Below, one piece after another: positions 2,904 through 35,775 of a stretch of DNA of 64,000 bases. Where the stretch lies: the NCBI GenBank assembly GCA_011050675.1, contig DRFI01000020.1, positions 1 to 64,000 of the forward strand, in the 5' to 3' direction. The notes below the pieces were generated by a model that saw nothing but the letters and a program-made list of their open reading frames with translations, was not told the origin of the DNA and did not search any database. How positions within the stretch are numbered: position 1 is the stretch's first letter; every line of letters begins with the position of its first letter. Position numbers and translations under genes: made by a program. Source of the DNA: Maribacter sp. (GTDB lineage: Bacteria > Bacteroidota > Bacteroidia > Flavobacteriales > Flavobacteriaceae).

Positions 2904-3393
2904 GCACAACAAAACCAAAACGTAATCCGGACTTTAGGGCTTTATCGAAAGGTTTACATATTATTATAAGTTAACGAAATCTTTAAAATTTCGCTTTAAA
3001 ACAAGAAAAATGATTTTGCTACGAGTAGTGGGGCAACTGGAATTGTATATAAACACTCCCCACTAATAATCCTTACCCTTGTAAAATCTATTAACGACAA
3101 ATAAAACCCTGAAACAAAGGTCATTTTAGGGACGTAAGTCCAAAATTTTTTAGCTAAAAAAATTCTTAGATAATTCATCAAATTCTCTTTTAAAAACTAA
3201 CAACCTTTTTAACTAACTATTACAGTAATAATTCACCTCCCTAGTTGTTCTGACAATTCAAATTACTATCCAATCGTTGGGTTAATGAACTATTTCTAAA
3301 TCTAAAACTGAAATATGAAAATTGAATTTAAAAGCATTAAAATAATCTGAACACTAATTTCTTTTTTACCTAAATTGCAATAAGAATTTATTA
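2904..3393. other. Non-coding region before the tRNA-like repeat
   Basis: About 490 bp without a supported gene. It starts with a GCACAACA-type word like the other post-gene spacers. A weak hairpin (CGAAAT / ATTTCG) lies at 2975-2993. A 61-codon leftward frame at 2996-3181 shows no family features and is not called. Nothing else is recognisable. Confidence 0.5.
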
Positions 3394-3538
3394 ATAATCA
3401 GAAAACTAAAACTGCATACGTTTTTGCATACGATTTTATAATTTGATAGCGGCTGAGCCCAATAAAACCGTTGGAAATTTTCCATACGAGGAGCTCATAA
3501 CCCGAAGGTCGCTGGTTCGAGTCCAGTCCCCGCTACTA
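3394..3538 (+). repeat. tRNA-Met-like direct repeat, copy 1 (candidate attachment site)
   Basis: Aligns without gaps to 35631-35775; I count 16 mismatches in 145 bp. The first 57 bp (to GATAGCGG) differ at only two positions and include a repeated GCATACG heptamer. The last 45 bp read like the 3' half of a tRNA: an anticodon-loop-like CTCATAA, a T-arm CTGG-TTCGAGT-CCAG and an acceptor CCCCGCTA. A 5' TAGCGG at 3447-3452 can pair with CCGCTA. The D-arm and anticodon stem do not fold properly, so this is a tRNA remnant rather than a working tRNA. Such remnants typically mark integration junctions of islands. Confidence 0.75.
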
Positions 3539-3543
3539 AGTTT

Positions 3544-3573
3544 AAAGCCTCTGAAATTTCAGAGGCTTTTTTT
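3544..3573 (+). terminator. Intrinsic terminator after repeat copy 1
   Basis: AAAGCCTCTGAAA and TTTCAGAGGCTTT form a perfect 13-bp inverted repeat followed by more T. It lies six bases after the tRNA-like repeat and also faces the leftward SGNH gene ending at 3696, so it could stop transcription from both sides. Confidence 0.8.
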
Positions 3574-3695
3574 ATTCCTTACATTTTTTGCATTATAAAT
3601 GCAATTTACCAAAATAAAGTAGGCAATCAACTCTAACTCATTGGTGTTTCTGGTCTGGTCTACATATGTTTAAATATACTAAAATCTATAATTGA

Positions 3696-5459
3696 TTATT
3701 TATCTATTATAATTCTTTCTAACTGCTTTCCCAAAATCATGTAGCCTTCACGATTAGGATGTAACCCATCTGTAAATAATGAATCATTTATTATTCCATT
3801 CTTAAGCAATAATTGGTCATCTATCTTTCTAAAATCTACAGCTTCTAAAACTGCCAATTGCGCTATTTTAAGATTTAGTTCTTTTATCAGTTTTTCTTTA
3901 CCAGTTCTAGGTAATATTCCTATCATTAAAATTTTACTTTTAGGTTGACGGATTTTAATAGCTCTTATTAATGTTTCTAAACCTTTAATTATTTCAGTAT
4001 CACTATTAAAATTTATATTGTTAGTGCCAATCATTAAAATAATCTGTTCAGCCTGATAACCATCAAGTTCATCATGGTATACTCTCCACAGAACATTTTC
4101 TATTCGGTCCCAACCAAATCCAAAATTACGAACTCCTAAAGGTTTCAAAATACCATCCCAAGAATCTTGCCCTCTGGCTATAGTTGATACTGGCTCTCCT
4201 CCCCAAAAATTGATTATTGAATCTCCAAAAAGACATATTTTTGGCTCATCCACTTTATTTAGCTCAAGTATGTCTTGATGTCTTTCTTCCCATTTATAAA
4301 CATCAATATCTCTACTCTGGGTTTTAGGGGCTTTAGTACTTAAATCTCCAATCGATTCTTTTATGACCTCTCTAATTAAATCTTCGTAAACCATGGCATA
4401 TTGGACCATACCATAATCATTTGGGTGTATATGATCTACATACATATCAAAACCAAAGGCTAAATCTTGCTTTTTTAGCAGAAAAATGTTTTCTAATCCT
4501 TCTGATTTTAAGTCATTATGAGCTCTTTCTAATTCCTTATTAAGCTTTATAACTTCTTCAGCGCTTTTCTTTCTGGTCAATTCATCTGCATAACCAATAT
4601 GAGTAGTAAGGATTATAGGTACATTAAGTCTTTTTAATCTTATTTTTTTTACCGCATCTATCGTAAGTGAATATGTGTCATCTGTATTGGGATTCAAATT
4701 TGGCAAACAATCTAAAATGTACAATTTTGAATCAATTTCAGTCATTAGATCAATAACTTCCATCTCTAGTTTCCCATTTCCTGAAAAGCCAAGATTAATG
4801 ACCGGTCTTTCAAGATTTCTCTCCAATATATTAGTCCAGGCCATTCCTGGTCGTGAAGCACACGCTCCTTGACAAATAGAAGTTCCATAAGCAACTATAG
4901 GCTTCTCTTTTCTAATTGGGAGGACTTCAAAAGAGGACTTTGAATCTACGCCTATTTCTAATATCTCTACTTCATTATAAAGTGGTAAAAATAGCTGATA
5001 CTCCCTACCATATTTTTTATATGATTCAGAATCATCATCAATTCTAAATGAATAATTGCTTTTTGTTTTAATTAAATAAGAACCCCAACTACGAAGCCAT
5101 TCTCCATCAAACGTTTTACTGTATAAGTCCAAACCGCTAACTCCTGTAGCAGGCATGTGTGCCATATCGATAGCTTCCTTAAGTTGATATTTAACAAGAA
5201 TACTGTCGGCATTAGACCAAAAACGTATAGACAAACCTGCTGACTGTTTAGATAAATTCCAAACCTTTTCTCTAACAGATTCCTCTGCTCTTTCAGGAAA
5301 TCGGTGATATACAGATTTTACCTCACTGGGCCAAGCTTGACCTGAAATTACAGGAACTACACTATTGACTGGGTTCCACCATTTTATTTTCTTCTCCGAT
5401 TGGGAAAAAGAAGTATTCACAACGAATATATACAGTAATAATAGTATTGATTTTCTCAT
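3696..5459 (-). CDS. Tandem SGNH/GDSL hydrolase (two esterase domains)
   Basis: Secreted 587-residue protein with signal peptide (cleavage after NTSFSQ). Domain order: an N-terminal GxDLY-type beta domain (GVSGLDLY near 106-113); a first SGNH hydrolase with GTSICQG (Ser nucleophile, near 192), LGFSGNG and a C-terminal DHIHPND Asp/His pair (near 350); and a second GDSL domain from about 400 with FGDSI, GTNN and DGLHPN. Both domains keep nucleophile and Asp-His signatures, so both may be active. These domains remove acyl groups, for example acetyl esters, from carbohydrates. It is the last gene of the long leftward train, 53 bp after the di-haem peroxidase gene. Exact ester specificity is unknown. 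Confidence 0.88.
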   Translation of the reverse strand: MRKSILLLLYIFVVNTSFSQSEKKIKWWNPVNSVVPVISGQAWPSEVKSVYHRFPERAEESVREKVWNLSKQSAGLSIRFWSNADSILVKYQLKEAIDMAHMPATGVSGLDLYSKTFDGEWLRSWGSYLIKTKSNYSFRIDDDSESYKKYGREYQLFLPLYNEVEILEIGVDSKSSFEVLPIRKEKPIVAYGTSICQGACASRPGMAWTNILERNLERPVINLGFSGNGKLEMEVIDLMTEIDSKLYILDCLPNLNPNTDDTYSLTIDAVKKIRLKRLNVPIILTTHIGYADELTRKKSAEEVIKLNKELERAHNDLKSEGLENIFLLKKQDLAFGFDMYVDHIHPNDYGMVQYAMVYEDLIREVIKESIGDLSTKAPKTQSRDIDVYKWEERHQDILELNKVDEPKICLFGDSIINFWGGEPVSTIARGQDSWDGILKPLGVRNFGFGWDRIENVLWRVYHDELDGYQAEQIILMIGTNNINFNSDTEIIKGLETLIRAIKIRQPKSKILMIGILPRTGKEKLIKELNLKIAQLAVLEAVDFRKIDDQLLLKNGIINDSLFTDGLHPNREGYMILGKQLERIIIDK

Positions 5460-5512
5460 GATATTATAATAATTAGTTCCAATAAAAACTATTTCATTTT
5501 TAAATTATTCAG

Positions 5513-7393
5513 TTAATTCATTAAAGACGTAAACCTCTCTATATCAGTTAGCGATTCCATAAATGCAATGATATCTTTAATTTCTTGTTTTGACAGATTT
5601 AATGGAGCACTAGATAATGTTTGGTTTTCAACTGGCAGTCCCATTCCGGCACCTCCACCAAGATTGTAAAACTCTAAAACATCTTTCAAAGAAAGAAACG
5701 AACCGTTATGCATATAAGGTGCTGTTAATTCTATATTTCTAATAGAAACAGTCTTAAAAGAATTTTTAAAAAAAGGGTAGTTATCTGCTTTTAACCCATT
5801 TTTCATTCTTCCTAAATCTTCATCTAATTTTGGATTAATAGAATCAAAACCTTGTATTACACCTAAAACTTCCGATTCAGATTCTATGTAAAATGGAGGA
5901 ACAGTTCCATTAAAAATTGGTGCAAAATGGCAACTACCACAAGCACCTTTACCCATAAATAAATTAAAGCCTCTTTTAGCACTCTCTGGATATTCATTAA
6001 TCTCATTTCGCACATACTTATCAAACTGGCTATTAAATGATTTCAAAGAATTAACGTAAGCCGCAATTGCATTGCTTATAGATCGCTCATTAATATCATT
6101 TGTTACAATGCCACCGTAGGATGCTTTAAACAGTTTTTTATAATTAGAATTTTTATTCAACTTTCTAATTATAGTATCAAAATTGGTATTAAACTCTAAA
6201 TCATCGTCAATAACGTGTGTTACTTGCTTTTCTAAATTAAACTCACGCATATCCCAAAAATATCGTGTAGCGTATCCTGCGTTTATTATAGATGGCGAAT
6301 TTCTTGCAGTAAAAAGGCCTTCTTTATTTGAAACACTTTTAGGCAAACCATCAGTAAAGCCAAGGTTGGGACTATGGCAACTTAAACAAGACATTGTACT
6401 ATTCTTGGATAACTGCGTATCTTCAAACAATAACTTTCCTAATTCAATCGTCTTAGGATTATCTAATGGTAGATATACTAATTCCGAATAAAAATTAGTA
6501 CTTAAAAAATTGACATCGAAAATATTTTTTGATTGATAGTCTTGCGCATGTTTTCTATAAGGCTCTAGTTTAATATTATTTAAATTCTGAAACTCTAACA
6601 ACCCTGCATACAATGGATTAACTACTTCCTTTAAAAAAACCATTCTATCAAAGTCGTCAAAACTTATATAAGAGTTTAATAAGTTTTCCCCTTTCTCAAA
6701 GAGTTTATTGATAGTCTCGAATTTAGTTTTTGCTTTAGGATGAATATCTGCATCAAAATACATGAATGCAGTTTTCATACTATGAAGACTTATATAACTT
6801 TCTTGTATTCCATTAACAGATCCTGGTGTATCAAAACCAGTAACACCTAAAGTGAAAATTCTGACCAGTCCAGAGCGAATACTTTCAATAATTTGACTAG
6901 ACTTTAAATGAAGTGGTAAATGTATTTTTGAAACATATTCAACATGAGTTCTTAACCCTTTAGCCAATAATTTAATGTGCTGAAGTTGCTCTTTAGAAAT
7001 TTCTTCAAAAACAGCTTCATCTAATGCCTGCAAACCTGAAGGTTCAATAATATTTTCTCCTTCAAAATATTCACTTATTTTAGGTAAAGGTGCCCCATTA
7101 ATATAAGCTCCGTTATATGCAGATTGGTAATAATCAAAAATAAATTCAATTTTTTTATAAGCAAGTCTCGTTTTTTCAACTTGTCTTTTCAACTGTAACT
7201 CATCTTCGAATACTAAATTATCGGTTAGGTTTGCTAGTACTTCTACTTCATTTTTAAAATTGCGAAAATTGATTGCATATTCCTTCTCCACTTTCTCTGG
7301 AATAGTCTTAGATAAAGTAGATCTTACCTTTTTACCCGACCAGATAAAAAAACAGACAAAAACTAACCCTAATAAAATGCATGATTTTTTCAT
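5513..7393 (-). CDS. Di-haem cytochrome c peroxidase / MauG-family protein
   Basis: 626 residues with an N-terminal hydrophobic signal or anchor. The first 290 or so residues form a helical extension common in Bacteroidota members. The catalytic half has two c-type haem sites, CLSCH near residue 334 and CGSCH near 483, followed by the PYMHNGSF and LKDVLEFYN stretches characteristic of the family. Family members reduce H2O2 with electrons from small cytochromes or, as MauG-like proteins, modify partner proteins. It would act in the periplasm. It lies between the purple acid phosphatase and the SGNH esterase in one leftward train; a cytochrome-c-tailed PQQ dehydrogenase is encoded upstream in the same train and could share the electron path. 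Peroxidase versus MauG-like activity cannot be separated here. Confidence 0.88.
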   Translation of the reverse strand: MKKSCILLGLVFVCFFIWSGKKVRSTLSKTIPEKVEKEYAINFRNFKNEVEVLANLTDNLVFEDELQLKRQVEKTRLAYKKIEFIFDYYQSAYNGAYINGAPLPKISEYFEGENIIEPSGLQALDEAVFEEISKEQLQHIKLLAKGLRTHVEYVSKIHLPLHLKSSQIIESIRSGLVRIFTLGVTGFDTPGSVNGIQESYISLHSMKTAFMYFDADIHPKAKTKFETINKLFEKGENLLNSYISFDDFDRMVFLKEVVNPLYAGLLEFQNLNNIKLEPYRKHAQDYQSKNIFDVNFLSTNFYSELVYLPLDNPKTIELGKLLFEDTQLSKNSTMSCLSCHSPNLGFTDGLPKSVSNKEGLFTARNSPSIINAGYATRYFWDMREFNLEKQVTHVIDDDLEFNTNFDTIIRKLNKNSNYKKLFKASYGGIVTNDINERSISNAIAAYVNSLKSFNSQFDKYVRNEINEYPESAKRGFNLFMGKGACGSCHFAPIFNGTVPPFYIESESEVLGVIQGFDSINPKLDEDLGRMKNGLKADNYPFFKNSFKTVSIRNIELTAPYMHNGSFLSLKDVLEFYNLGGGAGMGLPVENQTLSSAPLNLSKQEIKDIIAFMESLTDIERFTSLMN

Positions 7394-7435
7394 TTTCTAG
7401 CTGGGTTATTAGTGCGATTTACAACAATTCAAAAA

Positions 7436-9082
7436 TTACTTTATAGTTACAGATTCAGTATATATTTTTTTATTTGTAGTTATCTCTACAACATATAAGC
7501 CTTTTGACATCTTACTTATTTTTATTGTGTCTTTTCTACTTCTTTTTACCAATTCACCAATGTTATTATAGAATTTCACACTCTTTAAACGTTCATTCTT
7601 ATTAACAGCTATAGTAATAAGCTTGCTATCTTCTAAATACGTAAGGATTTTACTTTCTTGACCTGATTTATTTTTAACAACATTTGGTGTTACAATACCT
7701 GTTTTGTTTATCGTAAAATAATCATCGATTTCATTATTTTCCCGTATAAACTTGACAATCAAATTTTGACCTCCTTTACCATCATCTTCTACTTCCATAA
7801 CACAAGAACCTAGCTGATTTAAGGATAGATACATAGCTTGGTGATTTAATTCCCCTCCTGATATTTGACCTGCAGAACCGGTAGTTATATAAACAGCTCC
7901 TTCCGTCGCTTCTATACTTTTTTCGTATGCACCATTGCTGTCCGTTTTTCCATCTCCATGACCTGTTGAACCGACGGTATGGCCACCTTTAGAAATTTCA
8001 TCTGGATTAAAAGTATTTGCAAAACCTTGGTGTCCGTTTAAAAAATAAGAACGCTCGTAAGAATGACTATGACCATTTAAAACTAAGTCAACCCCATTAG
8101 CTTCTAACATCGGCATAAAGTTTTCTCTCATTTCAATAGGTCTATGATCTTCATCAGAATCATGAGACCCCTTGGAATATGCTGGATGATGAAATAACGT
8201 TACAATCCAATCATTTTTAGTATTCTGAATATCTGTTAGGGCCCAATTATACATAGCCCCCCCAACTTCACGACTAGAATGATGAGAATCTAATATTATA
8301 AAATGAATGTTGGCATAATCAAAAGAATAATAGGCTTCTGTACCCGAAGCTGTACCTCCTGCTTCTCCTTCTGTAGGGAAAGTGAAAATATCATAATAAG
8401 GACCGGATTGTGTTGCAGAATCTGCTGATTGACCATCATGGTTTCCTAAGCATGACCAAGCTACAGATTTCTTGAACATATCTCCATAAACATCAAAAAA
8501 GGCATTTTGATATTCTGCATCTTTACCAGTGTTATAAGCGTTATCACCCAAAAATAACATCATGTCAGTTTTACCATTGTTTATTGGAGCGTTGGCTACA
8601 TAATCATAATAAGCATCTCGCACTTCTCTTTGACTATTGTTTGCCGTACCAGGATCGCCTAAAATCCATGCACGCACAAATTGTTTTGTTCCAATAGCAG
8701 GCGCTGTTATCACATACATATCTCCGGTAAGATCTTGAGATAAAACCCCTTTATTATTACCAATATTGAAATAGTATTTCGTATTCGGAGTTAAACCAGA
8801 TAAAGTCACTTGATGATCAGTAATCAAGGTAAGATTCTTTTCGGTCTTCGTTAATGAACTAAATAATGTACCATAATTAACAACAGATTCTGTTGCAATA
8901 TTTGTTCTCCATTTTACAATTACACTAGTTGGTGTACCACTTTGTAAGTACGGTCCTCTTTCCACATTAATAGATGTAGTACTATGTATAGAATTAACAT
9001 CTGCAGTAGCTATTGGTTCCGTTTGCGAAAATGAATATACAGTAAAAAGCATCATTACTATTTGGGTAATTTTCTTCATCAT
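7436..9082 (-). CDS. Secreted purple acid phosphatase with T9SS tail
   Basis: 548-residue metallophosphoesterase. After a signal peptide comes a fibronectin-III-like purple-acid-phosphatase N domain (VERGPYLQSGTPTSVIVKW near 40-58). The catalytic domain has the binuclear metal motifs GDPG, GDNAY, GNHDG, FHHPAYS and GHSHSYERS. The last 75 or so residues (ending KGLYVVEITTNKKIYTES) match the Por-secretion sorting domain, so export through the type IX system to the cell surface is predicted. It would release phosphate from monoesters outside the cell. It begins five bases after the TPR gene stop, indicating co-transcription. Confidence 0.9.
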   Translation of the reverse strand: MMKKITQIVMMLFTVYSFSQTEPIATADVNSIHSTTSINVERGPYLQSGTPTSVIVKWRTNIATESVVNYGTLFSSLTKTEKNLTLITDHQVTLSGLTPNTKYYFNIGNNKGVLSQDLTGDMYVITAPAIGTKQFVRAWILGDPGTANNSQREVRDAYYDYVANAPINNGKTDMMLFLGDNAYNTGKDAEYQNAFFDVYGDMFKKSVAWSCLGNHDGQSADSATQSGPYYDIFTFPTEGEAGGTASGTEAYYSFDYANIHFIILDSHHSSREVGGAMYNWALTDIQNTKNDWIVTLFHHPAYSKGSHDSDEDHRPIEMRENFMPMLEANGVDLVLNGHSHSYERSYFLNGHQGFANTFNPDEISKGGHTVGSTGHGDGKTDSNGAYEKSIEATEGAVYITTGSAGQISGGELNHQAMYLSLNQLGSCVMEVEDDGKGGQNLIVKFIRENNEIDDYFTINKTGIVTPNVVKNKSGQESKILTYLEDSKLITIAVNKNERLKSVKFYNNIGELVKRSRKDTIKISKMSKGLYVVEITTNKKIYTESVTIK

Positions 9083-9087
9083 AATGT

Positions 9088-9930
9088 CTAATTGTTAATA
9101 GTGCTTTCTAAGCTTTTAATTTGTTGTTTTAATTCCAAAATTGAATCCATATTTTTAAACTTAGCATCCAATTTCTCTATTGTAGCGGTAGCTAGTTTCA
9201 AAGATATGTTCGCATCTTTTGATTTATTAATTGATACTAAATACGCCGCTTTTTGATAATACCAGAACTCTTTTCTTTGGTATTCAAGAATAAAATAATT
9301 GTATTGTTCTATTGTTTTTTCAACTTGGCCAGAGTCTTTTAAGTACTCCAATTTTTTAACCTGAAGTGATAATGTATTTTCGCCAACTTTTGTTAATCCA
9401 AAATCTATAACATCAATTGCCTTTGAGAAATTCTTATTGTTTTCTGCCAATATGATACTAGTATATTCCAAGATGTCTTCTGGTCGAATATCAACCATAG
9501 TTTTCATAACATAATGGTAAGCGGCTATAGATTCTTTATACGCTTCTATCTTGAATAATATTTGAGCTTCAAGTTTTTTAGCTTTTACATTTATACTGTC
9601 TACTTCTAAGTAGGCAGTTATACTTGACAAAGCATTCTTGTAGTCTTCGGATAAATAATTAACCTCAGCAATTCTATACATTAAGACTTTATCTGTGTTT
9701 CCTAAAGATGTAGATCTAAGATAATCTTCCATTGCTTTATTGAATTCAACATGTTGTTGATATAAAAAACCTCTTTCGTAGTATAACTTAAAGTCATTAG
9801 GGTTTTCAACTATCTCTTTTGTTTTTTGATTTATTCGTTTAGTTAAATCTCCATGAGAAAAAACTTGAACAGATAATAAAAGAAATGTGATTATAACTAG
9901 TGCTCTATGCGTTACTGGTTTTGAAATCAT
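9088..9930 (-). CDS. Tetratricopeptide-repeat protein, exported
   Basis: 280 residues with a signal peptide (leader ending SVQVFSHG). At least three TPR-like helical pairs are visible between about residues 35 and 150, for example YERGFLYQQHVEFNKAMEDY and YRIAEVNYLSEDYKNALSSI. There are no catalytic motifs. The protein probably scaffolds or chaperones a partner in the periplasm. Only five bases separate it from the downstream phosphatase gene, so that surface enzyme is the most likely partner. Confidence 0.8.
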   Translation of the reverse strand: MISKPVTHRALVIITFLLLSVQVFSHGDLTKRINQKTKEIVENPNDFKLYYERGFLYQQHVEFNKAMEDYLRSTSLGNTDKVLMYRIAEVNYLSEDYKNALSSITAYLEVDSINVKAKKLEAQILFKIEAYKESIAAYHYVMKTMVDIRPEDILEYTSIILAENNKNFSKAIDVIDFGLTKVGENTLSLQVKKLEYLKDSGQVEKTIEQYNYFILEYQRKEFWYYQKAAYLVSINKSKDANISLKLATATIEKLDAKFKNMDSILELKQQIKSLESTINN

Positions 9931-9972
9931 TTTTTTATAAAATATTTTAATTACTTGTGTTTTGTAAGACTA

Positions 9973-11001
9973 TTACTCTCTTAATTTCTTTTGCATATCT
10001 GTAGCACTTTTAATGTGTTGCTTATGCGTTTTAAGCTCAAATTCTTCAAGGATATCTGCAACCTTAATATCAGGAGATAGGCTTTCAATTATTGACCATT
10101 CTTCTTCATCGTAATTAGTAATCTTTACTTTTCTTCCATATTTAGCATGAATAGCTTTGAATTTCTTTATGTATGGCCATGTGTGTAAAAATGCTTTATC
10201 AAGATTTAATGGCGCTATTGCCCAATACTTGTCCCAGAACCCGGTTTTTGCAACTTCATCACCAGTTACATCACATATTTTAGCTGTACCATTAATTGTA
10301 CTAGACACTACACAATATTTGTTTTGCCAAGCCCTAGTATTAATCGCTTTTCCTCCAGAATATGCGGAACAGAAAAATACAATCTCAGCTCCTTTTTCCT
10401 TCAGCTTTTCCCATCCATCATTCCATTCAAGGTCAAAGCAAATTTGCACCCCAATTGTTCCGAAATCAGTTTTAAATACTGGTGGTTCGAGTGGACCTGG
10501 TGTAATTCCCTTACCCATCTCTCCTTCAGTAGTATGTGTTTTTCGGTATTCGCCTACTATTTCTCCATCCCTATCGATAACAACAGCAGCATTATAATAC
10601 TTACCATCCTCAGTTGTATAAAGTGGGCAAATTATATATGTGTTATGCTTCTTGGCAAATTCAGAAAACTTACTAGTTATTTTCCCCAAAGGTTCTTCTG
10701 CAACTTCCGCTATCAATTTCTTTTCTGAAATATGGAAAAATGGGAAAACTTCAGGAAGACATATTAGATCAGGGTTATAGTTGACAATATCTGCCATATG
10801 ACCTAAAACTTCTTCAACCATCTCTTCATGATTAACTGCATCAATTTTTGTTAAAGTAAGAGTAGCTATCCACACTTCTCTTGGCAACTTTATAGGTAAC
10901 GAGTTTTCTTTACTATTAGAGGCTATTGCTGCCGAAGGAGCAAGTGTAATGCCTGCACCTAGGCCAAGTGCTGAGTTTCTTATAAAATTTCGTCGTTCCA
11001 T
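9973..11001 (-). CDS. Carbon-nitrogen hydrolase (nitrilase superfamily), Tat-exported
   Basis: 342 residues. The leader MERRNFIRNSALGLG has the twin-arginine pattern and ends near AIA, so a folded enzyme would reach the periplasm. The catalytic triad of the nitrilase superfamily is visible: Glu in LPEVFPF (near 84), Lys in YRKTHTTEGE (near 155) and Cys in VQICFDLEW (near 187). Members hydrolyse amides, carbamoyl groups or nitriles. In this train of an M20 hydrolase and an amidohydrolase it is the third enzyme able to cut C-N bonds, which hints at an amide-bearing substrate. A dozen GGKA-type small residues near 215 match the family's oligomer region only loosely. Confidence 0.87.
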   Translation of the reverse strand: MERRNFIRNSALGLGAGITLAPSAAIASNSKENSLPIKLPREVWIATLTLTKIDAVNHEEMVEEVLGHMADIVNYNPDLICLPEVFPFFHISEKKLIAEVAEEPLGKITSKFSEFAKKHNTYIICPLYTTEDGKYYNAAVVIDRDGEIVGEYRKTHTTEGEMGKGITPGPLEPPVFKTDFGTIGVQICFDLEWNDGWEKLKEKGAEIVFFCSAYSGGKAINTRAWQNKYCVVSSTINGTAKICDVTGDEVAKTGFWDKYWAIAPLNLDKAFLHTWPYIKKFKAIHAKYGRKVKITNYDEEEWSIIESLSPDIKVADILEEFELKTHKQHIKSATDMQKKLRE

Positions 11002-11041
11002 ATGTTTTATTTGAAGTTGTTAAGAAATCATGTTTACCGAA

Positions 11042-12712: not shown

Positions 12713-12783
12713 TTATTTTACAAATAATGCTTTAATAAATAAGACATCGCTCTTCGTTGATACAATCAAAAGAAAAGGATTAC

Positions 12784-13911: not shown

Positions 13912-14133
13912 AATTTGAAATCTTTTTAATTTTTAATATAGCCCCTGATCAAACACATTATATAACTAGTACTGCCTAATAAAATACCTACAATCAACTA
14001 TTACATAGGATTCGTTCTCATCTAACGATTAGCGTTACTAATAACTATACAAAGTAAATATTTGAATTAATGGTTTTCTTTTATGCTATGAATTATTTGT
14101 GTTTTTGACAATACTGTATCGGTATATGCTTAT

Positions 14134-15831: not shown

Positions 15832-15963
15832 TTTTGGTATTAAAAATTCCCTCACACATAATTTATTAACACTCATAATCATCAATTTTATCTTTTACAC
15901 TCTGTTTTTTAAGTCCTTATTCTCTGGCTCATCAATTAAAATGTTCATACAGAAAGGTAATCA

Positions 15964-17376: not shown

Positions 17377-17427
17377 GATATATGTTTTATATATTAAATA
17401 TTTTATTTCTAACTAGTTTAGTATTAG

Positions 17428-19050: not shown

Positions 19051-19086
19051 TCTTTTATTATTAATATTAAGCGGCTTAAAAACCAA

Positions 19087-19956: not shown

Positions 19957-19959
19957 TTA

Positions 19960-21027: not shown

Positions 21028-21157
21028 ATGTACTCATTAATATTAATAACCGTTTTTTGATTCACCGGTATTAGCAACATGTATGCTCTTTTTAAATCGA
21101 TTCTACAAAGACTTGGACCTATAGATTTACACTCATCTAAAAAGTCATTTAGAAGTC

Positions 21158-22198: not shown

Positions 22199-22240
22199 CG
22201 TTCTTTATTATAAATTATTTCGTTTAAATCTTACAGCTCA

Positions 22241-24717: not shown

Positions 24718-24964
24718 TTCTTTGTGTCTTATTATTTAAAGCCAAACTAAATTTCACCAACCTTTTCTATCAATATTCTCCTAAACCTTTATAAACAAAG
24801 GGGTAGAAAGAATTTTACACTAAAAAAATCAATTACAACCAGTCACTAAATAGTCACTACTAAAATCTTAGAAGATTTAGCTGCCAACATAAATAGTATG
24901 TGCTCATTATGGATAAAATCAATTATAATAAACCAATCTTGACTATACTGTCAACAGATTGGTA

Positions 24965-26278: not shown

Positions 26279-26392
26279 TTTAGTTTTGTTTAATGATACA
26301 AAACCAGTAACTCTAAAATTTATTTATGTTCATTGGTATAAAGGCATTCTTCCGAAGAATGAATGCCCATATACAACTAAACTAACAAACTC

Positions 26393-27940: not shown

Positions 27941-27967
27941 AATTATATTTTTATTTATTGTTGATTA

Positions 27968-30900
27968 CTAAAATCCGATGCTCAGTCCTAAAGTGTAAGA
28001 CTTCACATTTGGATAACTACCATAATCCAGTCCAAGATTACTACTTGAATTACTATAAGATACTTCTGGATCAACGCCTTTATAATCTGTGAATGTGATT
28101 AAGTTTTGACCACTTACATATAGTCTAGCTGATGATAATTTAATTTTTGACAATAATGATTCAGGAAAATTATAACCTAAAGAAATGTTTTTTACTCTGA
28201 TATAGCTACTATCATCTATCCATCTGTCAGACGTTACATAACTTCTACTAATTCGAGCCTGTGGTATATCTGTATTAGTATTGGTTGGAGTCCATCTATT
28301 AAGTGCCTCTGTAGTAACATTGGTTCTGCCATTTAAAGCTCCTAATTCCATAAGGGTATAATTCATCATTTCACCACCTTCTGATCCCTGAACGAAAATA
28401 TTAAGACTTAGATTTTTATAGCTAAAATCATTGTTCCAACCCCAAGTAAAATCTGGATGTGGATTTCCAATAACACTACGATCATCATCTGTTAATGCTC
28501 CATCTCCATTAAGGTCTTTGAACTTTTCACCACCAACATCTTCTCCTCCTTCAAGTATAATATCGTCCGCCTGTACAACACCATCATAAACATATCCCCA
28601 AAACTGTCCTACAGATAAGCCTTCTCTCAATATTTGAGTATTCCCTCCTCCTGCTAATGGTGATGATGAATAGTATATATCATTTCCTTCGGTATCGTTA
28701 TCAACTAGTTTAATAATCTCATTATCATTAAATGAAATATTTGCAAAAGTTTTCCATTTAAAATCGCCTTGAAAAATAGCTGCATTTACTGCAAATTCAA
28801 ATCCTTTATTTTGTACCGTACCAATATTTTGTAGCTGTGTTTCAAACCCTGTATAATTTGGAGTAGGAACATTAAACAAAAGGTCGTTTGTCTCCATTAT
28901 GTAGTAATCGGCAGTGAAACCAAATCTATTTCCTAAAATACCAAAGTCCAAACCAATATTTGTTTGTGTTGTAGTTTCCCAAGTTAGGTCGTTATTAGAA
29001 ATCGTTGAAGGTCGTAAAGCTGTTACCGCATTACCTTGTACTGTCGTGAATACATCTGTAAATGAGGCTAAAGATTGATAAGGACTAATAGCCTGGTTAC
29101 CAACTTGACCATAACTTGTACGAAGTTTTAGTAAACTAATAGTATTAGAATCGACTAGAAATTCTTCATCAGAAATTTTCCAACCAAAGGCAGCAGAAGG
29201 AAAAAATCCATATTTTTTATTTTCTGCGAATACAGAAGCTCCTTCGTAACGACCAGTAAACGTAAATAAATACTTATCGTTCAAGGTATAATTCAATCTA
29301 CCGAAGAATGCTTCAAAAGTAGATTTTGTCAATTCTGAATCAACAGATGCCGCATTTGTACCTGCACCTAAATTCCAAAATGAAAAAGAATCAGAAATAA
29401 AACCTGAAGTTATAGTAGATGAAATTTCGGTTCTATCTTTTTGATAAGAATAACCTGCCATTAAAGAGATATCGTGGATATCAGCAAACACCTTAGAATA
29501 GTTTAAATAATTCTCATTGATTAAACTTGTATTTCTATAATTAATAAAGGTTGCTTCACCACCAGTACCATTACCACGTTCTAAAGTTGTTGGGTAATAC
29601 TGACCTGTTCTTGATCCATTCGCTTTGACACCTAACGTCGACTTAAATTTTAAGCCATCAGCAATACCAATTTCAGCATATACATTACCTTGAAATAAAT
29701 CGCTAATAACTTCATTCTGGTACTCAGTAGCCATGGCATATGGATTATCAATAGGATAACCAACCACACTCAACGAATAAACGCCATTTTCATCAACTAG
29801 ACCTTGAGTAGGAGAGAATTTATAAGCTCCCGAAACAACTCCTGTTTGAGATGCATCACCACCTTCTTGAGTTCTAACTCCATTTCTATTAGTTCTACGT
29901 GCGAAAAGACTTGACCCTATATTTACTGACTCAGATACTTTTAAATCTAAATTAGAAGTTATAGAATATCTCTTATAATCAGAATCTTTAATTACACCCT
30001 GTTGGTCAAAAATTGCACCTGATAAATAATAGCTTAATTTATCTGTACCTCCAGACACTGATAATTGATAATTTTGAACATCACCCGGTCTATAAATTTC
30101 ATCTTGCCAGTCTGTACCAGCACCAGTTAGTTCTGGAACAAAATCTGGATATAGTTCTTGAATATAGCTGGTAAACTGATCAGCATTTAGTAAATCTAAA
30201 TTATTGATTTCTGTCTGAGAGGAGTAAGAAGATGAAAAACTAAATTGTGGTTTGCCTTCCGTTCCTCTTTTAGTAGTTACAATAACAACTCCATTTGCAC
30301 CTCTAGCTCCATAAATAGCTGTTGATGAAGCATCTTTAAGAATCTCCATAGATTTAATATCTTCAGGTGGAGGCATTATACCGCCAATAAACCCGTCAAC
30401 AACGATTAATGGATCATTGCCCGCATTAATAGAAGTATTACCACGAATTTGGATACTATAATCTGATCCAGGAGCACCATTTGTAGATTGTACAGTAACA
30501 CCTGCCGCTCTACCTTGTAATGCTTGAGTTGCATCTATCACAGGAAAAGCCACTAAATCTTCTGAACTTACAGATGATACAGAACCCGTCAAATCACTTT
30601 TCTTTACACTTCCATACCCTACAACAACAACTTCATCTAACCCAGCAGCATCTTCCTCTAGTTTAACCGAAATATTAGTTTGCCCATCTATTGATACTTC
30701 ACGTGTAGAGAACCCTAAATAAGAAATCACTAAAACTCCTTTTTCATCTTGAACCTCTAAGGAAAATTTACCGTCAAAATCTGTTTGTGTTCCGTTGGTA
30801 GTTCCTTTTTCAACAATACTTGCGCCTGGTAATGGCTGGTCTTTAGAATCGAGCACTGTCCCTTCAATTAAAGTCTGTTGAATAGAAATAACCGCGCTAA

Positions 30901-31291
30901 CTTTTAAATCTTTTACAGGTACTACCGGTGCTTTCTTCACCAAATAAACTCGCCTGTCATTAATGTTATATGTGGACTTGCTATCTTTAAATATGTTCTT
31001 TAAGATGGCATCTATTCCTTCATTTTTAACTTTAATAGATATAGTTCTATTTAAATCTACATCCTCTATTTTATATACAAACTGAAATTCAGTTGTACTT
31101 TCAATCTCATCTAAGAGATTACCAATAGAAACATTGTTAAACTCTAAAGTTATTTTCGTGCGTTGTGCATAGCTATCATTGGCATGAAGACTAAAAAAAG
31201 TAACCAATATAAGCAGCGTACTTAATTTCATTTTTAAGTTATAAGAAGATAAAGGATATCGCCTTCTTGAGTAATTAAGAAGTTTTTTCAT
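27968..31291 (-). CDS. SusC-family TonB-dependent transporter with STN signalling domain
   Basis: 1107 residues. After a signal sequence (SLHANDSYAQ) comes an STN domain (about 45-120, FNNVSIGNLLDEIE and VEDVDL-type strands), then a carboxypeptidase-D-like domain (VLDSKDQPLPGASI), the plug with VVVGYGSVKKSDLTG near 222 and AIYGARGANGVVIVTT near 325, and a long beta-barrel ending in an aromatic residue. The STN domain signals ligand occupancy to the FecR anti-sigma encoded just upstream, the classic trans-envelope relay. Transport of an oligomer with the partner SusD (27 bp downstream) is expected. A start further in (MKLSTLLILVTFF) would also give a leader. Confidence 0.94.
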   Translation of the reverse strand: MKKLLNYSRRRYPLSSYNLKMKLSTLLILVTFFSLHANDSYAQRTKITLEFNNVSIGNLLDEIESTTEFQFVYKIEDVDLNRTISIKVKNEGIDAILKNIFKDSKSTYNINDRRVYLVKKAPVVPVKDLKVSAVISIQQTLIEGTVLDSKDQPLPGASIVEKGTTNGTQTDFDGKFSLEVQDEKGVLVISYLGFSTREVSIDGQTNISVKLEEDAAGLDEVVVVGYGSVKKSDLTGSVSSVSSEDLVAFPVIDATQALQGRAAGVTVQSTNGAPGSDYSIQIRGNTSINAGNDPLIVVDGFIGGIMPPPEDIKSMEILKDASSTAIYGARGANGVVIVTTKRGTEGKPQFSFSSSYSSQTEINNLDLLNADQFTSYIQELYPDFVPELTGAGTDWQDEIYRPGDVQNYQLSVSGGTDKLSYYLSGAIFDQQGVIKDSDYKRYSITSNLDLKVSESVNIGSSLFARRTNRNGVRTQEGGDASQTGVVSGAYKFSPTQGLVDENGVYSLSVVGYPIDNPYAMATEYQNEVISDLFQGNVYAEIGIADGLKFKSTLGVKANGSRTGQYYPTTLERGNGTGGEATFINYRNTSLINENYLNYSKVFADIHDISLMAGYSYQKDRTEISSTITSGFISDSFSFWNLGAGTNAASVDSELTKSTFEAFFGRLNYTLNDKYLFTFTGRYEGASVFAENKKYGFFPSAAFGWKISDEEFLVDSNTISLLKLRTSYGQVGNQAISPYQSLASFTDVFTTVQGNAVTALRPSTISNNDLTWETTTQTNIGLDFGILGNRFGFTADYYIMETNDLLFNVPTPNYTGFETQLQNIGTVQNKGFEFAVNAAIFQGDFKWKTFANISFNDNEIIKLVDNDTEGNDIYYSSSPLAGGGNTQILREGLSVGQFWGYVYDGVVQADDIILEGGEDVGGEKFKDLNGDGALTDDDRSVIGNPHPDFTWGWNNDFSYKNLSLNIFVQGSEGGEMMNYTLMELGALNGRTNVTTEALNRWTPTNTNTDIPQARISRSYVTSDRWIDDSSYIRVKNISLGYNFPESLLSKIKLSSARLYVSGQNLITFTDYKGVDPEVSYSNSSSNLGLDYGSYPNVKSYTLGLSIGF

Positions 31292-31340
31292 ACTTTTAAG
31301 GTGTTAAAATGTGGTTGTTATTATGATAATCACTAGTACT

Positions 31341-31372
31341 AAATCGGGAGATGTTCGAGCATTTTCCGATTT
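31341..31372. other. Hairpin between FecR and SusC genes
   Basis: AAATCGG (31341-31347) and CCGATTT (31366-31372) pair, with an inner ATG/CAT step. On the + strand a T-run follows, but no rightward gene ends here; on the - strand it lies in the FecR-SusC intergenic RNA. It might partly separate the regulator and transporter transcripts. Confidence 0.35.
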
Positions 31373-31483
31373 TTTTGTCCGTTTCGACAAGTTGTAGTCA
31401 GTAATTATTTTCTTGGTATTCTTTTTTAGACTGTACTTTTTAGTTCACTAGCATCTGTTTTAAATATTTATAATTATTATTTT

Positions 31484-32602
31484 TCAATCAATTACTACTT
31501 TGCCATCATCCATAATCTTATAATTTAGACCATAGTTAAATTTTAATTCTTCAAGAACTTTCTCTATAGGTTGGTCCCCGAAATTAGCATTGAATTTTTT
31601 GGCGGATAAAACTCTATTCTTATTAACAATAGAAACATTATAATGTCTTTCAAGCTTCTTCACTATGTTATCAAAGGTCATGTCTCGAAAAATAAGTTCG
31701 CCATGCATCCAAGAAGTATATATATCTGTATTGACTTGATTTTTGTCCATTTTGCCATTTATCTTGCCAAAACTACCTTTATAACCAGGTTCTAATAAAA
31801 TTGCATCTTGAACCCCATTCTCTTTTAAACTACTAGACATACTTACAGAGCCTTCTATAAGTACAACTTCTGTAATTTCATCTTCCGGATATGTTGAAAT
31901 ATTAAATTGTGTCCCCAATACCCGAACATTTAACTCCCCAGCATTTACTATAAATGGGTGTGCCGAATCTTTTGCTACGTTCAAGTATGCTTCTCCCGAA
32001 ATAAAAACATTTCTATCTTGACCCTTCAAAAACTTTACTGGGTATTTTAACGATGACCCTGCATTAAGTGTAGCAATTGTACCGTCAGAAAGTTTCAATT
32101 CAAATTTTCTACCAAATGGAACATTTAGTGTATTAAAAACAATCTCTTCGACATGACTATCTTCCGAATAAACTAATTGATTCCCATTTTGCTGTCCCAA
32201 TACAACACCCGATTTATCGGTAACTTTAACAGTTCCGTTTTCTTCAATGACTTTTAAACTCCCATCTTCAAGTTCAAGTGTAATGGCATTCTCTGGAATA
32301 TTATATGGAGTCGAAGGTTTAGTATCAAAAATATTATATGATAATATCCCAATAAAGATAGCTGCAGTAGTTGCTAATATTTTCCATGTATTTGTTTTAC
32401 CAGTTTTCAAATCACTTTGAACACTTATACCTTCCCACAAAGAATCTTTGATTTCCTTTTTACGAGAATCATTCTTAAAATGTAAATCTTTATTAGCTGA
32501 AGAAACTTCTTCATTAAATTTATTAAGGAGCTTATTCTCTTCCTCAGAAATTGAACCATCTAAGTATTTTTCCAATAACTCACGAAATTCGTGTTCACGC
32601 AT
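31484..32602 (-). CDS. FecR-family anti-sigma factor
   Basis: 372 residues. A cytoplasmic N-terminal part (about 1-80, ELLEKYLDGSISEEENKLL) that binds sigma is followed by one membrane segment (ILATTAAIFIGILSYNIF, near 90-107). The periplasmic part has the FecR domain (VPFGRKFELKLSDGTIATLNAGSSLKYP near 155-185) and a C-terminal DUF4974 secretin-like domain (FRDMTFDNIVKKLERHYNVSI). It relays the SusC STN signal to the sigma factor encoded 149 bp upstream. Order sigma-FecR-SusC-SusD is the standard arrangement. Confidence 0.93.
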   Translation of the reverse strand: MREHEFRELLEKYLDGSISEEENKLLNKFNEEVSSANKDLHFKNDSRKKEIKDSLWEGISVQSDLKTGKTNTWKILATTAAIFIGILSYNIFDTKPSTPYNIPENAITLELEDGSLKVIEENGTVKVTDKSGVVLGQQNGNQLVYSEDSHVEEIVFNTLNVPFGRKFELKLSDGTIATLNAGSSLKYPVKFLKGQDRNVFISGEAYLNVAKDSAHPFIVNAGELNVRVLGTQFNISTYPEDEITEVVLIEGSVSMSSSLKENGVQDAILLEPGYKGSFGKINGKMDKNQVNTDIYTSWMHGELIFRDMTFDNIVKKLERHYNVSIVNKNRVLSAKKFNANFGDQPIEKVLEELKFNYGLNYKIMDDGKVVID

Positions 32603-32751
32603 ATTTATATCTCTATAATTATATGAACCAAATAAGTCATCTAACTCACATCAATAAATTGATTTTAACATTTTATTAACGTTTTTGATTTAAATAGCGT
32701 CACCCGATTTTATTTATAAAATCTTATTTAGCCATATTTAAAGTGAAAGGT

Positions 32752-33333
32752 TTAATTAAAAAAGAAGAAGATTATTACGGGTAATTTATGTAGAACACCT
32801 AGATTTCTTCTGATTGATTTAAGCGCTAAGGATACTTGATTTTCAACAGACCGCTTAGATATACCTAATTGTGAAGCAATTTCTTCATTCGTATTATTTT
32901 CAACTCTGCTTAATTGATAAACTTCTTGACATCGTGGAGATAATTCTTTTAAAGAATTAGTTATGACAATATTAGTTTCTTCTAAATCGTATTGATTTTC
33001 AATTTCTGGTTTACAAAACTTTAATGAATCAATTACATTGAGTTGCACTGTATTGAATTTATTATCCCTTAAGTATTTAAAACAACCGTAACTAACAGCT
33101 TTAAATATGTAGGCTTCAAAATCCTTTATTTCTCTACTTTCTCTACTTTTCCATAATTCTATCCAAATATCTTGAACAATATCCTTAGCCACATCTCCAT
33201 CAAAAAGAATGCTTTTAGCTTTCAGAAACATAGATTCCCAATACATCTCAAACAGTTTTTGAAACGCCTTTCGGTTACCGTTTCTATACTGAGAAAGAAG
33301 CAATTCGTTCGTGTAAGCTTTTTCTTTCGACAT
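32752..33333 (-). CDS. ECF sigma-70 factor (FecI/SusC-linked type)
   Basis: 193 residues. Region 2 is seen in LFEMYWESMFLKAKSILFD and AKDIVQDIWIELWKSR (near 28-75), and region 4 in LSPRCQEVYQLSRVENN and EIASQLGISKRSVENQVSLAL (near 133-172). It would direct RNA polymerase to the SusC/SusD promoters when released by FecR. It is the first leftward gene of the locus, facing away from the GH31 gene across a 627-bp AT-rich gap. Confidence 0.93.
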   Translation of the reverse strand: MSKEKAYTNELLLSQYRNGNRKAFQKLFEMYWESMFLKAKSILFDGDVAKDIVQDIWIELWKSRESREIKDFEAYIFKAVSYGCFKYLRDNKFNTVQLNVIDSLKFCKPEIENQYDLEETNIVITNSLKELSPRCQEVYQLSRVENNTNEEIASQLGISKRSVENQVSLALKSIRRNLGVLHKLPVIIFFFFN

Positions 33334-33960
33334 TGTAATCGACTATTCAATTATGAACTTTGATAGATTATAAATGTATAAAAAAAATACATTACACAGT
33401 CTTTCTCATTAGTTCATTTGAGTGAACAAAACACAGTAAAGAGCTGAAATGTACAGTGAACAAGGTTAGTTGAAGTTCATAAATAAAATAGAATTATTGC
33501 ATTTGCTCCCTTTACAATTAAACTCACATAACACTACTTTAAATAATTGTATTACAGGTAATTGAAAAATATTCATTTATAAAGAAAACAAATTACATAT
33601 AACTTGAAACAGCATGTATATAAATGTTAAAATCAATCCATTTAAAACATATGTAAGTAAAGTAAACTTCACAATAACTTAATATTGATTAAAAATTTAG
33701 CCATATAAGATGCCTAGTGAGTATTTTATCAATCCTTAACTTTTCAAAATAATTAGAAATACATACCCTTCTATACTTTGAAAAGAATTTAACAGCTATA
33801 TAAGAATATTAATAAAATGTTAAACTCAATTTATTAATGTGAGTTAGAAATACCAGTGAAAGTAATGTAGATAGTTGAATAAATTTTTTATTACTATACT
33901 ACCTATTTAGAACAAACAAAACCATAATAAACTTTTTTTACACAAATTCTACCGGAAAAA
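33334..33960. other. Divergent intergenic region, sigma factor / GH31
   Basis: 627 bp, very AT-rich, without a supported gene. It must carry the promoters for the leftward sigma-FecR genes and the rightward GH31 gene. TATACTTTG at 33772-33780 resembles, but does not match, the TAnnTTTG box, and no exact box was found on either strand. The long distance to the GH31 start leaves room for a leader or a small RNA, for which I see no clear structure. Confidence 0.45.
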
Positions 33961-35583
33961 ATGAGAAGAGCTATTTTAATTTCGCTGATATTAACAACTG
34001 TTTTTAATGCTTATTCTCAAAATGATGAAAAAATAGAGATTACAATACTAGAAAATGAATATTGGTGGGGTGGGTTAAGTGCTATTGGTCATAATACACC
34101 TTATGATGCAAATACAACTGAAAGCCATGACCTTTGGGGTGATAATAAAGGAAATCAAGCGCAGCCGTTATTGTTATCTAGCAAGGGTAGGTATGTTTGG
34201 AGTGAATCTCCAATAAAATATTCTTTTGAAAACGGACATATTACCGTTACCACTAGAGAAGGTGAAATTAAATATGGAACTGCTGGTAAAAATTTGCGAG
34301 ATTCTTATAATTATGCAGTAACCAATTTTTTCCCTCCTAACGGAAAAATTCCAGAGGAACTATTGTTTACAAAACCCCAATACAATACTTGGATTGAGCT
34401 AACTTATAATCAAAACGAAGAAGATATTTTAAAATATGCCCAGTCAATCATTGATAAAGGGTATCCGCCTGGAGTATTAATGATAGATGATAACTGGCAA
34501 GAGAATTATGGTACTTGGGAGTTTTCTCCTCGTAGGTTTAAAGACCCTAAAAAAATGGTTGAAAAGCTACATGCAATGGGTTTTAAAGTTATGCTGTGGA
34601 TATGTCCTTTTGTAAGTGCAGACACCGAAGTTTTTAGACAATTGGAAAAAGAAAAATTATTATTACTAGATGCAGATAAGACTCAAGATGTACTGTGGGC
34701 TAATACCAAAAATAAAGCTGCAATATTTAGATGGTGGAATGGTGCAAGTGCTTGTTTAGACTTAAGTAACCCAAAGACTCAAGAATGGTTCGAAAAAAAG
34801 TTAAATTATTTAATGGATCAATATGGAGTAGATGGGTTTAAATTTGATGCTGGTGATGCAGATTTTTACACCAATGATATTGTTTCATACGCTCCTAATA
34901 CCAATCCAAATGACCATACTACCTATTTTGCCCAACTAGGTCTAAAGTACCCTCTGAATGAATATAGAGCATCGTGGAAAATGGCAGGTTTGCCTTTGGC
35001 ACAGCGGCTACGTGATAAACACCACTCTTGGGATGATTTAGAAAAATTAGTTCCAGATTTGATGTCTCAAAGTATTATGGGATATGCATATACTTGCCCA
35101 GATATGATTGGTGGTGGAGAACACCAATCTTTTGAGAATTCAACAACAATTGATGAGGAGTTGGTAGTTCGTTCTGCCCAGGTTCATGCGCTAATGCCTA
35201 TGATGCAATTCTCTGTAGCTCCTTGGCGTGTACTCTCTAAAGAAAACAATCAATTATGTCTTGAGGCAGCATTATTACACACAAACATGGGTGAATTATT
35301 TTTAGATTTAGCAAAGGAAGCATCTAAAACAGGAGAACCAATAGTTAAACCTATGAGTTTGGCCTACCCCGATAGTGGTTACGAAATGATTAAAGATCAA
35401 TTCATGCTTGGAGACGAAATATTAGTTACTCCAGTAGTTAAAAAAGGGGAACGTAGACGTAAAGTAGTTTTACCAAAAGGGAAGTGGAGAGATGAGAAAA
35501 ACAAAACCTTTAGAGGAGGAAGAACCATTGAGATCGAGGTTCCTTTGAGCCGTTTACCCTACTTCACTAAAGTCAAAAAATAA
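33961..35583 (+). CDS. GH31-family glycoside hydrolase, secreted
   Basis: 540 residues with signal peptide ending FNAYSQ. The barrel shows the GH31 marks: VLMIDDNWQENYGTW (near 175), VMLWICPFVS, DGFKFDAGDADF with catalytic nucleophile Asp296, and the presumed acid/base Asp381 in CPDMIGGGE. Unlike typical alpha-glucosidases it lacks a long N-terminal domain; the IDDNWQ...WICPFV pattern resembles the short MYORG-like branch, where alpha-galactosidase-type activity is known for one member. It would cleave an alpha-linked terminal sugar in the periplasm. It is transcribed away from the ECF-sigma genes and ends 47 bp before repeat copy 2. Confidence 0.87.
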   Translation: MRRAILISLILTTVFNAYSQNDEKIEITILENEYWWGGLSAIGHNTPYDANTTESHDLWGDNKGNQAQPLLLSSKGRYVWSESPIKYSFENGHITVTTREGEIKYGTAGKNLRDSYNYAVTNFFPPNGKIPEELLFTKPQYNTWIELTYNQNEEDILKYAQSIIDKGYPPGVLMIDDNWQENYGTWEFSPRRFKDPKKMVEKLHAMGFKVMLWICPFVSADTEVFRQLEKEKLLLLDADKTQDVLWANTKNKAAIFRWWNGASACLDLSNPKTQEWFEKKLNYLMDQYGVDGFKFDAGDADFYTNDIVSYAPNTNPNDHTTYFAQLGLKYPLNEYRASWKMAGLPLAQRLRDKHHSWDDLEKLVPDLMSQSIMGYAYTCPDMIGGGEHQSFENSTTIDEELVVRSAQVHALMPMMQFSVAPWRVLSKENNQLCLEAALLHTNMGELFLDLAKEASKTGEPIVKPMSLAYPDSGYEMIKDQFMLGDEILVTPVVKKGERRRKVVLPKGKWRDEKNKTFRGGRTIEIEVPLSRLPYFTKVKK

Positions 35584-35630
35584 TATTGAATTTGAATGAT
35601 TTTTCTCTTAATTACTTTTATAATATATTG

Positions 35631-35775
35631 ATAATCAAAAAACTAAAACTGCATACGTTTTTGAATACGATTTTATAATTTGATAGCGGCTGAGCTCAAT
35701 AAAACTGCAGAAAATTTTCCTGATTAGGAGCTTATAAACAGAAGGTCGCTGGATCGAGTCCAGTCCTCGCTACTA
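35631..35775 (+). repeat. tRNA-Met-like direct repeat, copy 2 (candidate attachment site)
   Basis: Gap-free partner of 3394-3538, 32,237 bp away in the same orientation. It is slightly more decayed in the tRNA part: CTTATAA replaces the CTCATAA loop, and GGATCGAG replaces GGTTCGAG in the T-arm. The GCATACG heptamer is kept once and changed once to GAATACG. Another TGCATACGATTTA word lies about 80 bp downstream (35855-35867). The copy follows the GH31 stop by 47 bp, so the repeats bracket the whole sigma/FecR locus. The surrounding gap 35584-35968 holds no supported gene. Confidence 0.75.

Follow-up and report, generated by a model that had tools for sequence, protein, structure and literature searches.

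The window, a stretch of 64,000 nucleotides of Maribacter sp. DNA, contains two direct repeats that were very probably left by islands inserted successively at a single initiator-type tRNA-Met gene. At least three layers, E1, E2 and E3, can be distinguished (Table 1); E2 would be a layer without an integrase end and E3 one whose integrase has decayed to about 55 codons. Tyrosine-integrase islands would insert at the anticodon-loop region of the tRNA gene, with each insertion rebuilding an intact tRNA with island DNA and displacing the old 3' half to the far end of the island. A later insertion at the rebuilt tRNA would repeat the process, such that islands pile up head to tail on its 3' side. 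The observations behind this are an intact tRNA, orientated fragments of it, an intact integrase ORF, an integrase remnant, and variation in the length of the site among relatives. A preliminary description of the window had proposed an island built by accretion through two successive insertions. The accretion is supported, with the correction that the block between the repeats is one of at least three layers.

Table 1. Features of the stack in the window
Feature	Position	Strand	Basis
E1, distal segment: cation efflux gene, PD40-repeat gene, 186-aa ORF	1..3393	+	Pfam; remainder of E1 would be C30:1-10597
Element-derived right end of E1	3394..3492	+	GCATACG at 3414-3420 and 3426-3432 (putative arm-type sites); common to attR sites of seven other genus genomes; motif also at integrase end of E1
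attR1 core, 3' half of tRNA-Met beginning at the anticodon loop	3493..3538	+	46/46 to C30:10596-10641; 44/44 in core scan
Layer E2, no integrase found	3539..35630	.	Pfam on 21 proteins, tblastn, remnant test right of core 1 (z 1.2)
SusD of E2	26393..27940	-	PF07980, PF14322
SusC-type TonB-dependent receptor of E2	27968..31291	-	PF13715, PF07715, PF00593
FecR-type anti-sigma factor, E2	31484..32602	-	PF04773, PF16344
ECF sigma factor, E2	32752..33333	-	PF08281, PF04542
Glycoside hydrolase family 31 (GH31), E2	33961..35583	+	PF01055, PF21365
Element-derived right end of E2	35631..35729	+	GCATACG at 35651-35657, plus GAATACG
attR2 core, 3' half of tRNA-Met differing at 5 of 44 nt	35730..35775	+	39/44
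Decayed N-terminus of E3 integrase (about residues 1-55, two frames)	35815..35966	+	Two tblastn matches (E 2e-7, E 1e-3); nucleotide alignment scores z 32 relative to 300 shuffles
E3 cargo: two phosphatase-type genes, SusD, SusC, hybrid AraC-type regulator	35969..48138	-	Pfam; 35949-48205 is 95.4% identical to G033
E3/right-flank junction, att site not recognisable	48139..48324	.	Possible integrase-start trace z 3.4, one of three control stretches 3.2; attR intact at the corresponding position of G033
DNA topoisomerase III (topB), bordering the stack on its right	48325..50622	-	NCBIfam TIGR01056

The repeats and the tRNA-Met gene

A search of the whole genome (31 contigs) aligned the copies at 3394-3538 and 35631-35775 over 145 bp with no gaps and 16 mismatches (89%, E 4e-49), exactly as first counted. 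The 145-bp query found these two full copies and one perfect match of 46 bp on contig C30, and none besides. Dozens of copies across the genome, which the preliminary description had named as evidence against its reading, are therefore not present; a dispersed repeat family was rejected because the genome has two full copies only. The 46-bp match is the 3' half of an intact tRNA-Met gene with anticodon CAT (ARAGORN), and its anticodon stem, GGG/CCC, presumably marks the initiator type. A Met-tRNA with the same 3' end, as had been anticipated, therefore exists in this genome, with an intact integrase ORF behind it.

Each repeat does end in a tRNA 3' half. The last 44 nt match the tRNA-Met of the same genome at 44/44 positions in copy 1 and 39/44 in copy 2, and the 30 nt preceding each core match the tRNA 5' half at 6/30 and 3/30 positions, respectively. 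ARAGORN calls no tRNA gene in the window and Rfam has no match there at gathering score, so the repeats are tRNA fragments. At a loose Rfam threshold, the 3 kb around copy 1 contained just two sub-threshold matches, both non-tRNA. These same results tell against the repeats being transcribed tRNA-like regulatory RNAs with their own promoter, hairpin and T-run, to which the islands would be incidental. This is very improbable, even though a hairpin and T-run are found behind each copy and the fold scores z -4.3 (copy 1) and -1.7 (copy 2) against shuffles, since the fold without the hairpin is unremarkable (z -1.7 and -0.7). The cores also track the tRNA of their own genome and adjoin integrases or integrase remnants in several genomes.

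The window has 10 occurrences of GCATACG, where 2.4 would be expected. This heptamer had been described as common to both repeats, which holds in that copy 1 has it twice and copy 2 a single time; the second heptamer of copy 2 is GAATACG. The start region of the C30 integrase ORF has GAATACG twice and GCATACG once. Several elements carry the same short motif at both ends, this being GCATACG in the window type and TACAACAT, TAAAACAT or a CGTAC-like motif in others. We take such paired end motifs to resemble arm-type integrase sites, and the heptamers are best interpreted as putative arm-type sites, which would bind the integrase. The repeats are very probably the attR ends of layers E1 and E2, distal to the tRNA, each consisting of an element-derived end with putative integrase arm sites and then a displaced tRNA 3' half.

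The layers and their cargo

Directly 3' of the C30 tRNA-Met is a tyrosine integrase ORF of 439 aa, with Pfam matches to the phage-integrase SAM domain, above cut-off, and to the catalytic domain, below cut-off. It also has a XerA-type NCBIfam match, far below the NCBIfam cut-off. This E1 integrase may be active. The tRNA and integrase point towards position 1 of C30, and position 1 of the window is the first base of contig C20. With these orientations, C30 reversed followed by C20 would give tRNA, integrase, E1, copy 1, E2, copy 2, dead integrase and E3. An overlap between the ends of C30 and C20 was sought and not found, so we infer this join. Compared with the criteria for tRNA-gene islands, E1 has an intact target tRNA at one end with a tyrosine integrase beside it. 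Its displaced tRNA fragment (46/46, 3493-3538) sits on a contig other than that of the tRNA, and the order and orientation of the fragment relative to the tRNA would be those seen in 24/24 relatives. Relaxase or conjugation genes were not found by Pfam in 10 of the 13 C30 ORFs before the tRNA or in 40 of the 49 window ORFs, E1 being incomplete, with a gap in its sequence.

E2 was first described as a glycan-type locus with no integrase, and both parts of this are borne out. SusC, SusD, FecR, ECF and GH31 genes are present, as is a GH109-type domain (Pfam, 21 E2 proteins). Adjacent SusC and SusD genes, the criterion for a polysaccharide utilization locus (PUL), are found in E2 and likewise in E3. 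None of the 21 E2 proteins is an integrase by Pfam, and tblastn of the C30 integrase against the window gave no match better than E 1 except that at 35815-35966. To the right of copy 1, at the left end of E2, no integrase remnant is detectable (z 1.2) and no arm motifs are detectable, the core alone being kept. In terms of the criteria for a CIME, E2 has no integration genes and keeps attR2 with arm motifs, with only a core on the left side. The lack of an integrase and of left arm motifs makes E2 a decayed layer. It would once have had an integrase of its own and inserted by it, and the lack of integration genes would reflect loss rather than original absence. An FAD oxidoreductase gene is located in E2 at 14134-15885. 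GC content does not set the block apart, at 33.9% in E2, 34.3% in E3 and 34.5-36.2% elsewhere.

E3 extends from 35776 to about 48.2 kb and is the second SusC/SusD block. The integrase N-terminus remnant to the right of copy 2 indicates that copy 2 precedes the dead start of another element. At the far end of E3, where an att site would be expected, none is recognisable in the window, which counts against the accretion reading; the window has only the possible integrase-start trace given in Table 1 there, and in G033 no integrase trace is found before topB (z 1.0 and 1.5).

The site in related genomes

The repeat was searched in 60 genomes, these being the source genome (G000) and 59 relatives, and matched in 58 of them, mostly at the tRNA itself. 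Matches over most of the 145 bp are present in seven other genomes of the genus (G001, G004, G019, G023 twice, G025, G027 and G033 twice), and a 111-bp stretch is matched in G036, a relative at the family level. Half cores were then counted by a scan of stretches around tRNAs and cores in 33 of the 36 genus genomes, with at least 33 matches to the 44-nt core required. The scan excluded G009, G024, G034 and some weak or contig-edge repeat matches, and the degraded att sites of G019 and G027 fall below its threshold and are uncounted. It identified 27 half cores in 19 genomes. All 20 of those on the same contig as a full tRNA (14 genomes) are downstream of it on the tRNA strand. Two or more half cores in tandem are found in 7/36 genomes (G000, G005, G013, G018, G023, G025 and G033).

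Direct repeats alone would be compatible with segmental duplication or homologous recombination without an integrase. This origin is nevertheless highly unlikely, since the similarity to the tRNA starts at the anticodon loop in 25/27 half cores, with [AG]CTCATAA at the start of all except one in G007 and copy 2 of the window. The same core is found joined to element ends that are unrelated, and an integrase or its remnant lies to the right of several cores; in G025, a core is followed directly by a 96% identical integrase inside the stack. Where the tRNA of a genome is unlike that of G000, 8/8 half cores resemble the resident tRNA more than that of G000 (G007 has two full tRNAs, and the one at 2648068 was used). 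G004 has the tRNA, integrase, about 38.5 kb, one attR and then topB. Strains with one copy had been proposed as a check; G004 has one attR and other cargo, and G012 and G032 have a match at the tRNA only.

Elements with different end motifs occur at the same tRNA, which is thus a common target for islands of distinct end types. In G005, the tRNA is followed by three half cores, and the end motifs differ between successive layers. The arm families (A to E) were assigned by eye from the very data being compared, so the shared 7-mer counts are descriptive only: at least one 7-mer is shared in 50/50 pairs within families (mean 10.6) and in 103/146 between families (mean 1.3). Sharing is low for window E2 (0), G033 E2 (1), the first G005 layer (1), G011 (2) and two G023 pairs (3 each), none of which amounts to an arm motif.

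G033, a one-contig genome, carries the same stack: tRNA, an 87% identical integrase, an att site, E2-like blocks, an E3-like block and an att site with a 44/44 core. Identity to the window is 76% over 3726-5459, 90% over 5541-13939, 89% over 15964-35647 and 95.4% for the E3 block. About 2 kb with the FAD oxidoreductase gene is missing from the G033 copy. The E2/E3 junction of G033 retains fragments of the repeat start and tRNA end and a weak integrase-start match, with the middle deleted (core z 11, integrase start z 4.5). Different remnants at an orthologous junction show that the same junction decayed differently in the two lineages. The preliminary description had held that the same block without any repeat would go against its reading, and on this point G033, where the block is present and the second repeat is reduced to an eroded remnant, counts against it. 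A simple clock, in which cores farther from the tRNA are more decayed, agrees with the window (44/44, then 39/44) and not with G033; it was dropped as a rule because the middle junction of G033 is eroded while the outer core is 44/44.

Between G000 and G033, two core-genome stretches are 82–83% identical and the left flank 84%. The layers are more alike than this (E2 about 89–90%, E3 95%), which suggests that E2, and especially E3, may have been exchanged once the two species had separated. Of the 36 genus genomes, only G000 and G033 have close relatives of the SusD proteins of E2 (94%) and E3 (99%); the E2 SusD has relatives of 40–45% in nine more.

This bears on a different history, in which E2 and E3 arrived pre-stacked as one composite and copy 2 is an internal fossil att site rather than a record of local insertion. 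The two SusD genes have their close relatives in the same 2/36 genomes at the same site, both layers exceed the two core-genome stretches in identity, the two genomes have an orthologous, decayed E2/E3 junction, and the G033 pair is flanked by two att sites with 44/44 cores. Set against this are the unequal divergence of E2 and E3 and the left part of E2 at only about 76%, which suggest separate exchanges or recombination, and a left end of E2 without arm motifs in both genomes (no shared 7-mers in one and one in the other). A composite arrival is on balance unlikely, while far more plausible than duplication or a regulatory RNA. The greater likeness of E3 than of E2 between G000 and G033 is at odds with a simple history in which the inside layer is the younger, and counts against the main reading of successive local insertions.

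The right border of the site was placed using a gene conserved in the genus. topB was dropped as the ancestral border since it is present in only 18/36 genus genomes, and an hmgA-like gene (homogentisate dioxygenase domain matches), with one match in 36/36, was taken as the anchor. On a shared contig, the anchor is downstream of the tRNA, on the opposite strand and in the same order in 24/24 genomes measured, at a distance of 6.9 to 247 kb (median 98 kb). The remaining genus genomes are seven with tRNA and anchor on different contigs, G000 included, and five without a placed full tRNA. G012 and G032, with about 7 kb between tRNA and anchor and no repeat match but the tRNA, were used as unoccupied sites. 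On the other side of the tRNA are a sodium:alanine symporter gene and an Era-like GTPase gene. In four genomes topB is no more than 250 bp from the tRNA (G015 and G026) or from an att site (G004 and G016). The G015 site is not virgin, since the start of a decayed integrase (z 26) lies between tRNA and topB.

SusD matches are concentrated in the tRNA-to-anchor interval, with 15/87 inside it against 2.5 expected by length in seven genomes (Poisson 6e-8), a comparison in which genome sizes are rounded and orthologous loci are counted more than once and so are not independent. The sum leaves out G000, whose interval spans two contigs; G000 has 3/18 on C20 before the anchor. The site would thus offer marine glycan degraders a concrete route for gaining loci, at a single tRNA gene whose conserved flanks are 6.9 to 247 kb apart within one genus. 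The layers, with their decaying tRNA fragments and integrases, would record past insertions.

Known elements and the spread of integrase and cargo

The mechanism is a known one, that of tDNA islands and CIME-like decay, and it is the site, the cargo and the depth of layering that are new. Among its 3919 islands, the Islander collection has 125 tandems with at least two members and 4 with at least three (PMC4383910). Its islands resemble those here in the regenerated tRNA, the 3' fragment in the same orientation, the adjoining tyrosine integrase, the crossover in the anticodon region and the tandem arrays. They differ in that each member of an Islander tandem needs an integrase, whereas none was found in E2 and E3 has a remnant only. 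Accretion of ICE, IME and CIME is described in a review (PMC5704250). The integrase-less layers here would be like CIMEs in being kept between att sites and accreted to another element, and decayed elements in tandem are also described. Unlike the cases there, no transfer genes were seen in any layer (E1 being incomplete), the E2 left core has no recognisable arms and the cargo is for glycan uptake. The same review lists Bacteroidota IMEs at tRNAs, NBU1 at tRNA-Leu and NBU2 at tRNA-Ser (PMC5704250). These also have tyrosine integrases acting at tRNA 3' ends, but the tRNA target is another one and no relaxase was seen here in the ORFs scanned. In gut Bacteroidetes, mobile elements carrying SusC/SusD loci have been described (PMC6907783). 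The likeness to those cases is in the SusC/SusD loci borne by mobile elements; the differences are the marine genus, the stacking at one tRNA gene and layers partly without an integrase. No paper on islands at a Maribacter tRNA-fMet or on stacked SusCD islands was found in mostly multi-term searches of mainly non-subscription literature, which is weak evidence of novelty.

A tentative extension of successive insertion, less likely than not, is that the initiator tRNA-Met of Maribacter-type bacteria may be a shared landing site for several integrase types with different arm motifs, and that glycan-uptake layers which lost their own integrase may travel along with it and later be remobilised as composites, using the att sites of adjacent layers. 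Such layers would be a testable case for movement in trans.

The cargo itself is not bound to the element. In a sample of 397 family genomes, G269, from another genus, was the only one besides the source genome to have a relative of one E2 protein (84%), and most E2 genes are present there at 75–80% within about 34 kb. That locus has no tRNA in 80 kb and no integrase match, and the only att match in G269 is at the tRNA on another contig. Most E2 genes thus occur there without island features nearby, which counts against the island reading in that the gene set is not defined by the island.

A relative of the integrase at E 1e-5 is present in 20/36 genus genomes, the source genome included. In the named loci found by the integrase, tRNA-Met is just upstream in 7/8, and the eighth (M. 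luteus) has a half core. The integrase module is 92% identical to that of Zobellia russellii, where it is at the identical tRNA, and the neighbouring symporter and Era-like genes are 76% identical.

Probable tRNA targets of the integrase family

Relatives (36–81% identity) of the tyrosine integrase encoded on contig C30 of the same genome adjoin, in species including M. orientalis and M. sedimenticola (loci L039, L040, L042, L043 and L044), a tRNA-Met that is 75 nt long and distinct from the one on C30; the family's range of targets therefore seems to extend beyond a single CAT-anticodon tRNA. Two complete tRNA-Met copies are present in each of three related genomes, G007, G014 and G029 (loci L074, L075, L078, L079, L092 and L099). 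In G007 and G014 the two are on the same strand and spaced approximately 168–169 kb apart, with an integrase relative of approximately 40% identity behind one of them. This may reflect an element carrying a whole tRNA copy.

Hairpins behind the tRNA cores

Most tRNA cores are followed by a hairpin with a T-run, the sequence of which varies from element to element. It is as if every island came with a terminator to serve the tRNA it rebuilds.

Candidate accessory genes and flanking genes

The 249 and 140 aa ORFs of island layer E1 are found behind the integrase in five genomes (G000, the Maribacter sp. itself, and G001, G004, G025 and G033) and have no matches in Pfam or NCBIfam; their products are candidate accessory proteins of the element. 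The second tyrosine recombinase of E1 has 95% identity to its G001 counterpart. The HipA-type and helix-turn-helix genes of G033, which carries the same E2-E3 pair of layers, are missing from the window copy. In Shewanella, a HipAB pair reportedly stabilises a composite island (PMC8978831). The lyase gene set right of topB, the DNA topoisomerase III gene, has a colinear counterpart in M. stanieri.

Coordinates of the features described above
Feature	Location	Position
Hairpin with T-run	window 3539-3575, 35776-35815; C30	right of tRNA (C30)
HipA-type and helix-turn-helix genes	G033, L056:12222-13812	immediately behind first att site (site with a displaced tRNA-Met 3' half)
tRNA-Met copies, G007	C1:2648068 and 2817339	
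tRNA-Met copies, G014	C18:17795 and 185583	
tRNA-Met copies, G029	contigs C5 and C67	
Two ORFs, 249 and 140 aa	C30, L006:8029-9238	after integrase
Second tyrosine recombinase, distinct from first	C30, L006:6365-7495	within E1
Chondroitinase B-type and heparinase/alginate lyase-type gene set	window 55240-61759	right of topB
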